Of a DNA stretch of 64,000 nt, positions 40,310 through 46,576 are shown piece after piece; within the stretch, counting starts at the first letter, position 1, and each line of letters begins with the position of its first letter. The notes beneath the pieces are model-generated. The model saw nothing but the letters and a program-made list of their open reading frames with translations, searched no databases and was not told the DNA's origin. A program made the translations under genes and the position numbers. Source of the stretch: Rhizobium leguminosarum (GTDB taxonomy: Bacteria > Pseudomonadota > Alphaproteobacteria > Rhizobiales > Rhizobiaceae); the NCBI RefSeq assembly GCF_002953715.1, contig NZ_CP025012.1:2418001-2482000 (forward strand). The letters run 5' to 3'.

Positions 40310-43300
40310 TGGGTTACCTCAATCTGTTGAGTAGAAGCCAGGTCGAACCGGGCCGAATTGCTGCGCGGCGTCCAGAGGCTGCGGTCGATCGCCTCCAGCA
40401 GCCGCTCCTTCATCTCGTCGAATGCCGCAGGGTTCTTTTCGATCATGAAATCGCGCACGCCGGGATCGGCAACGAAAGCTTGGTACACCGCCTCGAAATG
40501 ATGCTCGCCGACCGCACCCGTCGTCGCCGAAAAGGCGAAGAGATAATCGACGGTGGCGGCGATCTCTGCCGCCCCCTTGTAGCCGTGGCGCATGACGCCC
40601 GATATCCATTTCGGATTGACGACACGCCCGCGCACGACGCGGCCGATCTCCTCTTCCAGCGAGCGGATCACCGGCTTTTCCGGCCTTGAATGGTCGTTGT
40701 GATAGATCGAGGGACGCGCACCGGAGAGCTGTTCGGACGCCGCCGCCATGCCGCCCTCAAACTGGTAATAGTCATCGCTGTCGAGCAGGTCGTGCTCGCG
40801 ATTGTCCTGGTTCTGAATGACCGCCTGCACCGAGCGCAGCCGCTCCTCGAACAGACCGCGTTCGGCCTTGCCCTCCTCGCCGGCGCCATAGGCATAGCTG
40901 CCCCAGACGAGATAGGCCTCGGCGAGATCGGCGCGCCGTTCCCAACCCTTCTCGTCGATCAGCGCCTGCAATCCGGCGCCATAGGCACCAGGCTTCGAAC
41001 CGAAGACCCGGTAGCCCGCCCGGCGCGCCGCCGTCTTTCCGTCAAGACCTGCAGCCGCAAGCCGCGCCGCCTCGCTGCGCATCCGCTCGGCAATGGGATT
41101 ATCGCCAGCATCCTCCTCCAGCGCGCCGACGGCGCGGATCGCCTTGTCGAACAGCGCGATCTGCTCGGGAAAAGCATCGCGAAAGAAGCCGGAGATCCTG
41201 AGCGTCACGTCGACCCGCGGCCGTCGCAACATCGCCGGCGCAATGATCTCGTAGCCGGTGACGCGGCGTGAACTCATGTCCCAGAGCGGCTTGACGCCGA
41301 TCAGCGCCAGCGCCTGGGCGATATCGTCACCGCCGGTGCGCATGTTCGACGTGCCCCACGCCGTCAGCCCGAAGGAAACCGGCCATTCGCCATGATCCTG
41401 CACATAGCGGCGCACCAGCAGCTCAGCCGATTTGCAGCCGAGTTCGTAGGCAGCGGGCGTCGGCACTGCGCGGCTGTCGACCGAATAGAAATTCCGCCCC
41501 GTCGGCAAGACGTCAGGCCGCCCGCGCGTCGGCGCGCCCGAGGGACCGGGCGCGACGAAGCGGCCGTCGAGCCCGTTGAGTAGACCGTGAATTTCGGCGG
41601 GGCCACAGGCGAGGATGGAGGGCTTGAGGCGGGTTTCGATTTCGGAGAGTACAGCCTGCGTAGCCTTCCAGTTCGCCGGGCACTCCATTTCGCCGGAAAC
41701 GAACTTTGCTGCCAGCAGTTCGATACGCTCGACAGCGTCGCCGTTGGTTCGCCATGGGGCGTCGAGAATATCTGTGAGGATATCAGGACGCGGGCCGGTC
41801 CAAACGGCTGCCATGTCGGTGTCGAGGGGATCGAAAGAAGACCCCTCCCCAGCCCCTCCCCACAGGTGGGAGGGGCCTACCGCTGCGCTTGCGGCAACCT
41901 CTGCGACCAAAACTGATGTTGAGACGGTGCGCCCAGCAACTCCCTCCCCCTTGTGGGGAGGGGTTGGGGAGGGGTTTCCGAACGCATCCACCGCGATCGC
42001 CCGCTGCAAGCTCGCATCCCCACCCTCACCAAGCCCGCGCGGCACCCGCGCCAGCGCCACCGTCAGATCGGTCAGCAGCCGCCCCTCCGGCGACACACCA
42101 AACACATGCAGCCCGTCGCGGATCTGCATTTCCTTGAGGTCGCAGAGATAGGCGTCGAGCTTCTTCAGCGCTTCGCCCTCGCTTTCCCCCTTGGCAATGC
42201 CGGCATCCCTGTCGAGGCCGATATCGGTAACGAGCTCGAGGATCTGCCGGCTGAGCAGACGAATGCGGCGGGGATCGCCGCCCGACGCCTCGTAATATTC
42301 GTCGACCAGCGCCTCCAGATCCTTCAGTGGCCCATAGCTTTCGGCGCGCGTCAAAGGCGGCGTCAGGTGATCGATGATGACGGCAGCACTGCGGCGTTTC
42401 GCCTGTGTGCCCTCGCCCGGATCGTTGACGATGAAGGGATAGAGATGCGGCAGCGGCCCGAGGATCGCCTCGGGATAACAGCTTTCAGACAGCGCCAGCG
42501 CCTTGCCCGGCAGCCATTCGAGATTGCCGTGTTTGCCCATATGGATGACGGCATGAGCGCCGAATTTCTCGCGCAGGAAAGCATAGAAGGCGAGATAACC
42601 GTGCGGCGGCACGAGATCCGGCGAATGATAGCTCTCTTTCGGATCGATATTGTAGCCGCGCGCCGGCTGGATGCCGACCAGCACATCGCCGAAACGGGCA
42701 AAAGGCAGGGCGAAGACGCCCTCGCGAACATACGGATCATCTACGGGATCGCCCCAGCGGGCTCTCACCTCATCCTGAATCTTGTTAGGAAGAGATTCCA
42801 GGAAGCTGTTGTACAGACTCAGGGAAAGCGTCTCGCGGATGATCTTTCCATCGGAACCGGAATTGGTCGGCCCTTGCATCAGGTGCCGGATCAGCGCATC
42901 GCCGTCGGCGGGAATCTCGGCGACCGGATACCCGGCCACCCGCATAGCCTTCAGCACCTCGACGGTGCCGGCCGGCGTATCCAAACCGACGCCGTTGCCG
43001 AGCCGGCCGTCCCGGTTCGGGTAGTTCGCCATGACGAGCGCGATGCGCCGGTCGCCGGCGGAAGTCTTCCGCAGCCGCGCCCAATTGGCGGCAAGCTCCG
43101 CCGTATAGCGCACCCGGCCGGCATCGGCCTGGCTGGCGACGATATTCGTCTCGACCAGCGCATCGTAGCGCGCCGCCGTCTTGAAGGAGATCGCCCGAGC
43201 CAGCACCCGGCCATCGACTTCAGGCAGTGCCACGTTCATGCCGAGATCGCGCGCCGACAAGCCCTGCGAGGAAGCTGCCCATGCCTCCCTCGACGAGGCC

Positions 43301-44220
43301 GACAGGATCGCCTGCAGCACAATCGCCTCATTCGCCTCCAGCACTGTCGGCTGCCGGTCTGCACCCGGTGCCGAGACCGCAAAGCCCGTCGTGTTGATGA
43401 CGACGTCGGGTTTCAACGCCGAAAATACGCTTTCAAGAATGCCGGTCGAAATCGGATCTTTAAGACTATAGGCAAAGACCGGCAGCGGGCGGAGGTCGAG
43501 TGCGGCCAGCGCTTCGACAAGCGCTTCGATCGGCCCGGTCTCGCCGCTCTGCACCAGGGCGCGGTAGAAGCTGATGGCGACTGTCGGGCGGGCAAATCCC
43601 TCGTCCGCTACCATCCCCGCACCCGAAGACATCTCTGCAGCAACCCGCCGCCACTCCTCGACCCCGATCAGTCCCCGCCCCGGCCACCAGATACCAGCCT
43701 TCATCAAAGGCACCGCCGGCGCCGGTTTCTCGGCGCCTGAGAGCATCGCCCCAGCATAATCGAGAAACGCCCGCGCATTGGCATCGCCGCCCTCGATCAG
43801 ATAGGCCCAGAGCGCGTTGAGATCGCCGAGCCCGATATTCGAAAACGGCACCAGCCCCGCATCCGGCCTGGCATCGCCCGGCAGCACCGCGATCAGCGAA
43901 CCGGCGCGGGCCGCTGCCGCATGCAGCGCCTCCAGCGCATAGTGGAAATAGCTGGCGCCGCCGAGTGCACGCACGATGATCAGCTTGGCATGCCGTGCCG
44001 TGCGCTCGACATAGGTATCGACCGACATCGGATGCTTGAGGCTCATCAGGCTGGCGAGCCGAACCGACGGCGCCGCCCCGAGATCGCGATGGGCCGCCGC
44101 GATCGCGGCAAGCTCGGTGTCGGCCGCCGACAGGAACAGGATGTCGCCCGGCGTCTGCCCAAGGTCGATTGCCTCCTCGCCGTCGCTGATCGTTCCCTGC
44201 TGGGCCAGAAGCAGATGCAT
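40306..44220 (-). CDS. cobN: Cobaltochelatase subunit CobN, with in-frame repeat insertion
   Basis: A 1304-residue large subunit of the ATP-dependent aerobic cobaltochelatase, which inserts cobalt into hydrogenobyrinic acid a,c-diamide with CobS and CobT (not in this window). Family motifs include HMGKHGNLEWLPGKALAL and GTSNMRTGGDDIAQALALIG. A stretch beginning GNPSPTPPHKGEG and ending SHLWGGAGEGSS is encoded by a 135-bp palindromic element at 41841-41975 and has no counterpart in the conserved fold. Reading frame is kept through it. It starts four bases after the stop of cobW and overlaps cobO. Confidence 0.95.
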   Translation of the reverse strand: MHLLLAQQGTISDGEEAIDLGQTPGDILFLSAADTELAAIAAAHRDLGAAPSVRLASLMSLKHPMSVDTYVERTARHAKLIIVRALGGASYFHYALEALHAAAARAGSLIAVLPGDARPDAGLVPFSNIGLGDLNALWAYLIEGGDANARAFLDYAGAMLSGAEKPAPAVPLMKAGIWWPGRGLIGVEEWRRVAAEMSSGAGMVADEGFARPTVAISFYRALVQSGETGPIEALVEALAALDLRPLPVFAYSLKDPISTGILESVFSALKPDVVINTTGFAVSAPGADRQPTVLEANEAIVLQAILSASSREAWAASSQGLSARDLGMNVALPEVDGRVLARAISFKTAARYDALVETNIVASQADAGRVRYTAELAANWARLRKTSAGDRRIALVMANYPNRDGRLGNGVGLDTPAGTVEVLKAMRVAGYPVAEIPADGDALIRHLMQGPTNSGSDGKIIRETLSLSLYNSFLESLPNKIQDEVRARWGDPVDDPYVREGVFALPFARFGDVLVGIQPARGYNIDPKESYHSPDLVPPHGYLAFYAFLREKFGAHAVIHMGKHGNLEWLPGKALALSESCYPEAILGPLPHLYPFIVNDPGEGTQAKRRSAAVIIDHLTPPLTRAESYGPLKDLEALVDEYYEASGGDPRRIRLLSRQILELVTDIGLDRDAGIAKGESEGEALKKLDAYLCDLKEMQIRDGLHVFGVSPEGRLLTDLTVALARVPRGLGEGGDASLQRAIAVDAFGNPSPTPPHKGEGVAGRTVSTSVLVAEVAASAAVGPSHLWGGAGEGSSFDPLDTDMAAVWTGPRPDILTDILDAPWRTNGDAVERIELLAAKFVSGEMECPANWKATQAVLSEIETRLKPSILACGPAEIHGLLNGLDGRFVAPGPSGAPTRGRPDVLPTGRNFYSVDSRAVPTPAAYELGCKSAELLVRRYVQDHGEWPVSFGLTAWGTSNMRTGGDDIAQALALIGVKPLWDMSSRRVTGYEIIAPAMLRRPRVDVTLRISGFFRDAFPEQIALFDKAIRAVGALEEDAGDNPIAERMRSEAARLAAAGLDGKTAARRAGYRVFGSKPGAYGAGLQALIDEKGWERRADLAEAYLVWGSYAYGAGEEGKAERGLFEERLRSVQAVIQNQDNREHDLLDSDDYYQFEGGMAAASEQLSGARPSIYHNDHSRPEKPVIRSLEEEIGRVVRGRVVNPKWISGVMRHGYKGAAEIAATVDYLFAFSATTGAVGEHHFEAVYQAFVADPGVRDFMIEKNPAAFDEMKERLLEAIDRSLWTPRSNSARFDLASTQQIEVTQ
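41841..41975. repeat. 135-bp palindromic element inserted in frame in cobN
   Basis: The ends at 41841-41864 and 41952-41975 form a 24-bp inverted repeat with one mismatch, rich in CCCCTCCCC blocks. Inside, each end has a second hairpin (CCCCTCCC with GGGAGGGG type). The length of 135 bp equals 45 codons, and no stop codon occurs in the cobN frame. The SPTPPHKGEG-type peptide is one I recognise from repeats in rhizobial genomes. Mobile by its palindromic form, though no transposase is present. Confidence 0.9.
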
Positions 44221-46002: not shown

Positions 46003-46164
46003 AGGAGTGGAAAGTGCGTCCCAAACGCGTCGCAGCAAAAGGCACCGAAAAGGCACCACTTGATCGCGCCGCACCAGGCCGCGCTGAATTCAATCGTTCA
46101 GCCAAGACAACCTCCGTGCTGGCAACGGGCATAGCGCCCAGGTGTGGGCCTCTCGCCCGGCACG

Positions 46165-46530
46165 CATGGCAGGTCTCCTGGCTCGCGGTTATCGGCCGCG
46201 ATCGGGGCAGACCGGAAACCGGTCGCCCTGATCGTGCCAGCGGATCATCCTCGCCTTCCCGGCTGCATCAGTGAAAAGGTGGACGATTCGTAGACTTGAG
46301 AGGCGTCCGACCCCGGTTGATCACCATGCATATCCAGTGGCTTTTCCGACATATCGCCTGTCCCGCCCGCCCGCACGATTGCAGGCTCCGAGCCGGAAGG
46401 GCTTGATGCCGGATGGAAGACCCTGACCGCTCTACAGTCGCGGGGTCGGCTGTGATGAAGGCGCCCGGCTTGGGTCCGCCCCGTCACATTCCCTTTTCAT
46501 CCGGAAGGGCGCAACACCGATCCGGAACCA
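46165..46530 (-). promoter_or_regulatory. Cobalamin riboswitch, unusually long
   Basis: On the minus strand the conserved 3' B12 box GCCAGGAGACCTGCC lies at 46169-46183, and the core with CCGCGACTGT lies near 46435-46444, preceded by GGGAATGTGAC and GGTGTTGCGCCC at the 5' side. AAGCCACTGG and CCGGGAAGGCG flank the peripheral arm. The distance from core to B12 box is roughly 250 bases, much longer than usual, because of an expanded arm. Binding of adenosylcobalamin would shut off the downstream cobP-W-N-O genes. Confidence 0.88.
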
Positions 46531-46576
46531 TCCGTTATATCAGGATGGTCAGTCGACCATCCGTTATCGGGATGGT
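46527..46576. promoter_or_regulatory. Tandem dyads at the cob promoter
   Basis: Two similar dyads: ACCATCC (46527-46533) with GGATGGT (46543-46549), and ACCATCC (46556-46562) with GGATGGT (46570-46576). Both loops begin GTTAT, and the centres are 28 bp apart. They lie at the 5' edge of the riboswitch, where the promoter is expected, and are candidates for a regulator site. The 230 bp from here to the ClC gene are AT-richer around 46660-46720 and hold no gene. Confidence 0.5.

Follow-up and report, generated by a model that had tools for sequence, protein, structure and literature searches.

How does a palindromic repeat come to be translated within the gene of a cobaltochelatase subunit, and is it the encoded peptide or the nucleic acid that is preserved once it is there? 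This question is raised by cobN of Rhizobium leguminosarum, which lies in the window, i.e., the whole stretch of 64,000 nucleotides analysed here (contig NZ_CP025012.1, positions 2,418,001 to 2,482,000). In-frame palindromes were previously described in Rickettsia, in Wolbachia and as scattered REPs; for cobN or ribD of rhizobia, no earlier report was found among the open-licence papers listed.

Within the open reading frame of cobN, which is identified by TIGR02257 over the whole protein (1699.8 bits vs. a cut-off of 822.05) and also matched by PF02514, the palindrome has exactly the boundaries given in the original prediction, and its arm family is named F1 here (Table 1). The arms are 91% complementary and, counted by eye, contain a single mismatch over their outer 24 nt, as had been predicted; the frame of cobN passes from NPSPTPPHKGEG to GPSHLWGGAGEG and stays open, so that the proposed addition of 45 codons free of in-frame stops is borne out. 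The RNA fold of 41835–41980 reaches −94.5 kcal/mol compared to a mean of −65.2 for shuffled sequences (z −6.66), with predicted pairing extending a few bases beyond the element on both sides. A chance palindrome is ruled out by these shuffles, of which 0 of 200 equal the fold, together with the copies that exist elsewhere in the genome. A known RNA family was rejected as well, since over the element no Rfam covariance model reaches its gathering score and the micro-RNA matches lie far below it. The cobalamin riboswitch found upstream of cobN in the window is also present upstream of cobN in L087, L090, and L091.

Table 1. Positions of the palindromic element, its host gene and related features (window coordinates unless stated otherwise).
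Feature	Position	Strand	Remark
cobN, cobaltochelatase subunit CobN, 1304 codons	40306..44220	−	insert host
CobN site B linker, SLQRAIA to FDPLD	41821..42012	−	insert included
F1 palindromic element, 135 bp	41841..41975	−	translated in frame, CobN site B
Arm 5' in cobN, 34 nt	41942..41975	−	read as NPSPTPPHKGEG
Inter-arm spacer, 67 nt	41875..41941	−	neutral-like evolution in relatives
Arm 3' in cobN, 34 nt	41841..41874	−	read as GPSHLWGGAGEG
CobN site A linker	43573..43662	−	empty in window genome, filled in many relatives
Cobalamin riboswitch, upstream of cobN, same strand	46151..46547	−	RF00174, 49.8 bits, gathering 31.5
F1 copies, both arms	567303, 911596, 3921494, 4003556 (own contig, C1)
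F1 copies, one arm	1129445, 4391777 (own contig, C1)
ribD hosts of F2	L152, L154, L155, L157, L162, L183, L185, L188, L189, L190

If the element is an addition, related CobN proteins should show a clean gap, which is what the original prediction had proposed to look for and what was observed. CobN was matched in 95 of 100 genomes, the window's own included, and in 35 of the 40 order-level genomes. In at least 20 of these 35 order-level CobN, the query parts that end at residue ~745 and begin at ~793 lie only 3–12 nt apart in the target, while 87 nt separate them in G091, and the remaining order-level matches do not resolve site B among the matches listed. Three order-level CobN that were read directly (L210, L211, and L212) have short linkers at both sites; of the four other loci in that reading, one is from within the genus and three lack an ORF bearing the motif used. 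On the tree, the closest sequence, CobN of R. leguminosarum USDA 2370 (L034, 95% identity), has an empty site B. Thus, the insert is absent from at least 20 order-level CobN in which the site is readable, and neither of the two findings named as adverse in the original prediction, presence of the segment in distant alphaproteobacteria or lack of further arm copies in the genome, was made. By eye, a single block with short G runs at its borders distinguishes alleles with an occupied site B from those with an empty one; with these borders, the block fits the deletion of a palindrome between short repeats and equally well an insertion.

The window CobN aligns to 9uk9, a solved CobN of the compact type with 1263 residues, up to residue 746 and resumes at residue 790, the two pieces joining at chain residue 741. 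In an AlphaFold2 model of residues 1–1200 built from 28 rows, which is poor overall (mean pLDDT 56), residues 749–794 and 202–208 are low-confidence coil stretches between helices or strands; searched with Foldseek, this model retrieves CobN, ChlH, and HmuS chains as top matches. Sites A and B are therefore likely tolerant linkers, and the term flexible linker draws mainly on the alignment, since the structure model is poor.

The second expectation concerned copies of the arms elsewhere in the genome. The window's own contig contains six further places with arms, of which four have the pair and the other two a single arm (Table 1), plus two weaker matches with 3 mismatches in one arm motif, a motif that reads nearly alike when reversed. 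These six places are overlapped by 15 ORFs of at least 100 amino acids, and of the 11 that were scanned with Pfam, five had a matched domain-bearing frame or none at all. In the domain-bearing ORFs L003 (DUF779), L005 (DNA ligase), L007 (transporter permease), and L009 (ABC transporter) the element precedes the domain, and no F1 copy at the six places falls within a matched protein domain as far as these 11 of 15 overlapping ORFs are concerned. The proposal that an intergenic repeat had become coding sequence is in line with this location of the other copies outside any matched domain. Plasmids carry the elements as well: in PLSDB, F1 was found at 222 places in 86 records and F2, a larger arm family introduced below, at 1145 places in 182 records. 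At the best place per record (best 40 of 86 records for F1, best 50 of 182 for F2) the annotated feature is "none" wherever annotation exists, with one exception, an ABC transporter ATP-binding gene at the element in two Shinella records. A peptide search with F2 likewise returned "none" in 29 of 29 annotated rows, with 9 further rows unannotated; calling the plasmid copies intergenic is approximate, since the PLSDB gene table is incomplete. Within the genus, copies of the inner arm (≤3 mismatches) occur in 53 of 60 genomes.

The alignment of CobN proteins revealed that the element of the window is one of several kinds of insert. We aligned 110 CobN rows, 80 from named loci, which lean to near relatives because they are the best 80 of 587 candidates, and 30 from other genomes. 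Compared to compact references, stretches with at least 8 extra codons are found at site A near residue 192 (60/110 rows), at site B near residue 745 (89/110), and in C-terminal tails (12/110), so that interior inserts of this size are confined to the two sites in these rows. Besides F1, the inserts comprise F2, read as PPSVLPDISPTRGEIG ... ISPLVGEMSGRTEGG with arms mostly of 43–63 nt and a CCGGACATCTCCCCCACAAGGGGGGAGAT core, its variant F2b, which is found mainly in the R. tropici group, F3, read as SPAGRRCPTGQMRG ... SSDPSGHLLPAGEKG, the smaller sets F5 and F6, and mosaics. Two of the latter, at site B of L096 and L101, combine a left arm like that of F1 with a right arm like that of F2. After removal of 13 duplicates and of 6 incomplete, broken or N-containing rows (L094, L102, L122, L138, L141, and L142), 91 distinct rows remained; before the tree was made, four of the labels received a manual correction, and sites holding remnants were grouped with the empty ones. 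Of these rows, 57 have an empty or residual site A, while 19 carry F2 there, 8 F3, 3 F5, and 4 F6 or a mosaic; the corresponding numbers for site B are 27 empty or residual, 21 F1, 21 F2, 16 F2b, and 6 F3, F6 or mosaic.

Mapped onto a quick maximum-likelihood tree, from which the site columns had been removed and in which 33 of 88 inner branches are starred and 30 of 88 forks open, these states require at least 26 family changes at site A and at least 32 at site B, with mosaics counted as states of their own and gains and losses unpolarised. Presence and absence alone require at least 19 changes at A and at least 16 at B. Exchange of cobN alleles between strains may inflate these counts. The F1 insert is common to many CobN of Rhizobium, and the capture of such elements is neither a single nor a recent event. 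Partial remnants that keep the frame were observed in L048, L131, L081, L083, and L107; in L048 the F1 arms are left with most of the spacer gone, and in L131 the F2 arms are almost fused. In 2 of the 110 copies (L102 and L138) the cobN frame is broken at site A, where the length of an arm differs by a single base, possibly a slippage hot spot or a sequencing error. In the cobN of G016 (L207:753-3140, plus strand), an in-frame F1 insert is present and the frame is apparently lost within tens of codons thereafter.

Spacers were compared on their own, 32 from F2 inserts in cobN and 8 from ribD, and spacers of one type were seen at site A or at site B, depending on the genome. The A and B spacers of L038, L039, and L040 are 80–83% identical, compared to a mean of about 0.57 and a maximum of 0.64 for shuffled sequences, while those of L063, L089, L090, L100, L135, and L143 are no closer than the shuffled maximum. 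A cobN site B spacer (L055) and a ribD spacer (L190) share 87% identity. Because related F2 spacers recur at site A, at site B, and in ribD, whole elements appear to be copied. Of the 60 genomes of the genus, at least 10 have an in-frame F2 in RibD (Table 1; three confirmed as RibD by TIGR00326), near residue 262 within the reductase domain, or further on if the reading of the ORF begins at an earlier stop. Moreover, FtsY carries an in-frame F2 (L166:445-2100, minus strand; TIGR00064), in which the element is N-terminal and precedes the region covered by the FtsY model. Among the matches listed, the in-gene copies with a recognised family are those in cobN, ribD, and ftsY. Further host genes, sought as long ORFs over F1, F2 or F3 copies, were rejected, many of the scanned ORFs matching no family: L174, L176, L180, and L193 have no NCBIfam family, L194, L195, L196, L199, L201, L202, L205, and L206 have no Pfam family, and in L197 and L203 the element falls outside the domain. 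Judged by eye, L171, L175, L177, L178, L179, L181, L182, L184, L186, L187, L191, L192, L198, L200, and L204 were not counted as hosts either.

The comparison of arms and spacers addresses what is preserved. For F1, the 13 of 21 site B rows of equal length were used, in which 4-fold degenerate sites differ in 58 of 666 comparisons in the left arm, in 0 of 625 in the right arm, and in 163 of 420 in the spacer; the values are 42 of 303 for the short left flank (12 codons), 56 of 211 for the right one, and 0.197–0.531 for cobN windows outside site A. Those to the left of the insert give 0.283, 0.197, and 0.457 and those to the right 0.311 and 0.49, at most a mild one-sided dip in divergence left of the insert. 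Counted by columns, 4 of 11 are variable in the F1 arms vs. 315 of 397 in the backbone (P 0.003). In F2b at site B, 12 inserts have a length of exactly 188 nt each, and 6 of 78 columns vary in the stems, 10 of 15 in the loops of the small hairpins, and 74 of 95 in the spacer. At third codon positions, 2 of 24 are variable in the stem, 27 of 32 in the spacer, and 811 of 985 in the backbone (stem vs. backbone, P 1.6e-14), and at first and second positions of the spacer 23 of 31 and 24 of 32. This set leaves out 4 of the 16 F2b rows, those without anchors; pairwise third-position values that include all 16 rows are 0.031 for the stem, 0.409 for the spacer, and 0.357 for the backbone. F2 at both sites displays the same contrast between stem and spacer and F3 lacks it (arm 0.110, spacer 0.097, backbone 0.362), in a comparison that defined the arms of each row by their complementarity, a procedure biased towards conserved arms; fixed columns were used for F1 and F2b. 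For F2, which has several spacer types as well as arms defined in this way, age and effect size are less certain.

The DNA of the stems is thus conserved, rather than the GNPSPTPPHKGEG peptide as such. Since silent stem sites are frozen while the spacer drifts, the constraint would act on the DNA or RNA hairpin and not on the peptide. Judged by their spacers, which have diverged like the silent sites of cobN, the F1 and F2b inserts at site B appear to date back roughly as far as the divergence of the host gene, and the peptide read from the spacer is free of constraint. Covariation within cobN lends no support, because the stems hardly vary (one double change in F2b, a score reached by 94 of 500 shuffles). 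For copies of the small outer hairpin of F2b, 48 of the 51 rows with two mismatches show paired double changes; these rows are related copies from G029, G036, and G056, some of them in cobN.

Taken together, we consider it probable that a dispersed, mostly intergenic palindromic repeat of the Rhizobiaceae joined cobN by in-frame insertion and that its stems are kept for the hairpin. Two inverted hairpin-forming arms with a variable spacer would have entered a tolerant linker, site B, in frame. Whole copies would arrive by the action of some enzyme, a search for which identified no donor, or by recombination, and the survivors would be only those arrivals in flexible linkers that are in frame and free of stops, which would be the reason why the elements pile up at two points. 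Loss would occur by deletion between short repeats at the base of the hairpin, and the stems would be kept because the DNA or RNA hairpin matters, with the peptide as a tolerated by-product. As divergence is somewhat low just left of the F1 insert, F1 may in part have spread more recently than the backbone diverged.

The frozen stems could be due either to selection on the hairpin or to gene conversion. Under the latter, the cobN stems would be overwritten repeatedly from other copies and appear frozen without selection on the hairpin, an alternative that deserves attention though we regard it as doubtful. Potential donors abound, given the inner-arm copies spread through the genus, the mosaic inserts of L096 and L101 would fit such events, and in L043 the core of the right arm resembles copies elsewhere while the spacer is of the cobN type. 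However, 17 of the 21 F1 right arms at site B were readable, and their core is CACCTG in 13, a single-base derivative of it in 2, and CCCTTG in 2, whereas CCCTTG is found in 15 of the 17 readable left arms; with different cores, the arms show no convergence. In arm contexts elsewhere than cobN, the core is CCCTTG in 14 of 21 and CACCTG in only 2 of 21. Moreover, in G004, G010, G013, G035, and G047 the outer right stem of F2b (≤2 mismatches) matches the cobN copy alone, so that no donor is visible in these five genomes, a result that bears on the outer F2b stem only, since copies of the inner stem are present there.

It would be rather unlikely, in our assessment, that the elements are purely selfish passengers which insert and are lost repeatedly, with selection acting just against breaks of the frame and stems that seem frozen because the inserts are young. 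The high turnover of families on the tree, the copying of whole elements, the dispersed copies and the smaller repeat nested in them (see below) are all expected of such passengers, as are the equally low divergence of arms and spacer in F3 and the low divergence immediately left of the F1 insert. The spacers of the main F1 set and of F2b nevertheless look homologous across rows and have diverged like silent sites of cobN, which makes these inserts old unless spacers mutate much faster. Selection for the peptide, by which the insert would give CobN a useful loop, could be read from the one peptide motif shared by the arms across F1 rows and from the identical length of 13 of the 21 F1 inserts at site B; it is highly improbable, because different families with different peptides share one point and many relatives have no insert, and it was rejected on the codon positions of the F2b spacer, which vary alike (23/31, 24/32, and 27/32). 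A further idea, which we hold to be unlikely, is that the hairpins are interchangeable nucleic-acid parts selected at interdomain linkers, for instance as mRNA structures that slow the ribosome during folding of upstream CobN; if true, it would explain why F1, F2, F2b, and F3 swap at the same points despite unrelated peptides.

The proposed in-frame insertion of a dispersed repeat, with stems that would be kept for the hairpin, can be compared with known systems. The elements of Rickettsia (RPE) and Wolbachia (WPE) are described as short palindromic repeats found between genes and in frame within conserved protein genes (PMC2229807). The element of the window shares with the RPE a palindrome of about 100–150 bp and a location both in frame in a conserved gene and between genes, and it differs in belonging to the Rhizobiaceae, in the several arm families at two points of one gene (91 CobN), in nesting, and in its frozen stems. 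The resemblance noted in the original prediction thus holds: compared by description, the element appears to work in the way that RPE do within coding sequences. REPs of the GTAG and CGTC super-families are reported to be hairpin repeats that are mostly extragenic and in part intragenic, with different REPs near one recB site in two Xanthomonas species (PMC3733652). Unlike these, the window element has neither tetranucleotide at its ends, which read ACCCCTC and GAGGGGT, and has longer arms forming an inverted pair around a spacer. REPINs are described as pairs of inverted hairpin units that flank a variable spacer, are copied genome-wide and are mobilised by RAYT (PMC3116915); the window element shares with them the dispersed inverted hairpin pair and the variable spacer, its forward and reverse copies being nearly equal in number (58 and 48 in G015). 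The Y1 transposase (PF01797) is present in 11 of 60 genomes of the genus and absent from the other 49, among them that of the window and the copy-rich G015; a RAYT-driven REPIN origin is ruled out by its lack in the window genome. RIME, Sm-repeats, and AB/C palindromes are described as intergenic palindromic repeats of the Rhizobiaceae (PMC2573895), and F1 and F2 may belong to them, a likeness by description in which the window element differs by lying within a gene as well.

CobN represents a natural replicate experiment with many arrivals at two points in 91 distinct sequences, in which empty, filled, partly deleted, mosaic, and nested states are observed. Its inserts separate tolerance by the protein from preservation of the DNA, and stems frozen in a coding region offer a direct route to asking whether dispersed hairpin repeats of bacteria have a function of their own.

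The nested state is due to a repeat of about 40 nt that forms two small hairpins with the core GGGTCTCGACCCGTCCTTCGGAC. It was found in F3 at site A (L043, L048, and L141), in F2 at site A (L129 and L140), in F1 at site B (L043 and L131), and in F2 in ribD (L183), i.e., inside three families, and by eye it is read as PGSSHGSRPVLRTP, SGVEPPVSTRPSDP or YRGRAAGLDPSFGPP, which correspond to all three frames. Its core (≤2 mismatches) is present in 34 of 60 genomes of the genus with a maximum of 30 copies per genome, while the reversed core, used as control, gave 0 in every genome; the window genome (G000, contig C1) contains it at 22 places, six of them without mismatch. Finally, L174, L175, L180, L181, L184, and L192, which carry F2, and L194, L195, and L200, which carry F1, seem by eye to have identical flanks, with a context of ORF text like VDVPVGIGE...AVVVEA, and judged from these sequences families may be switched outside the recognised genes too.
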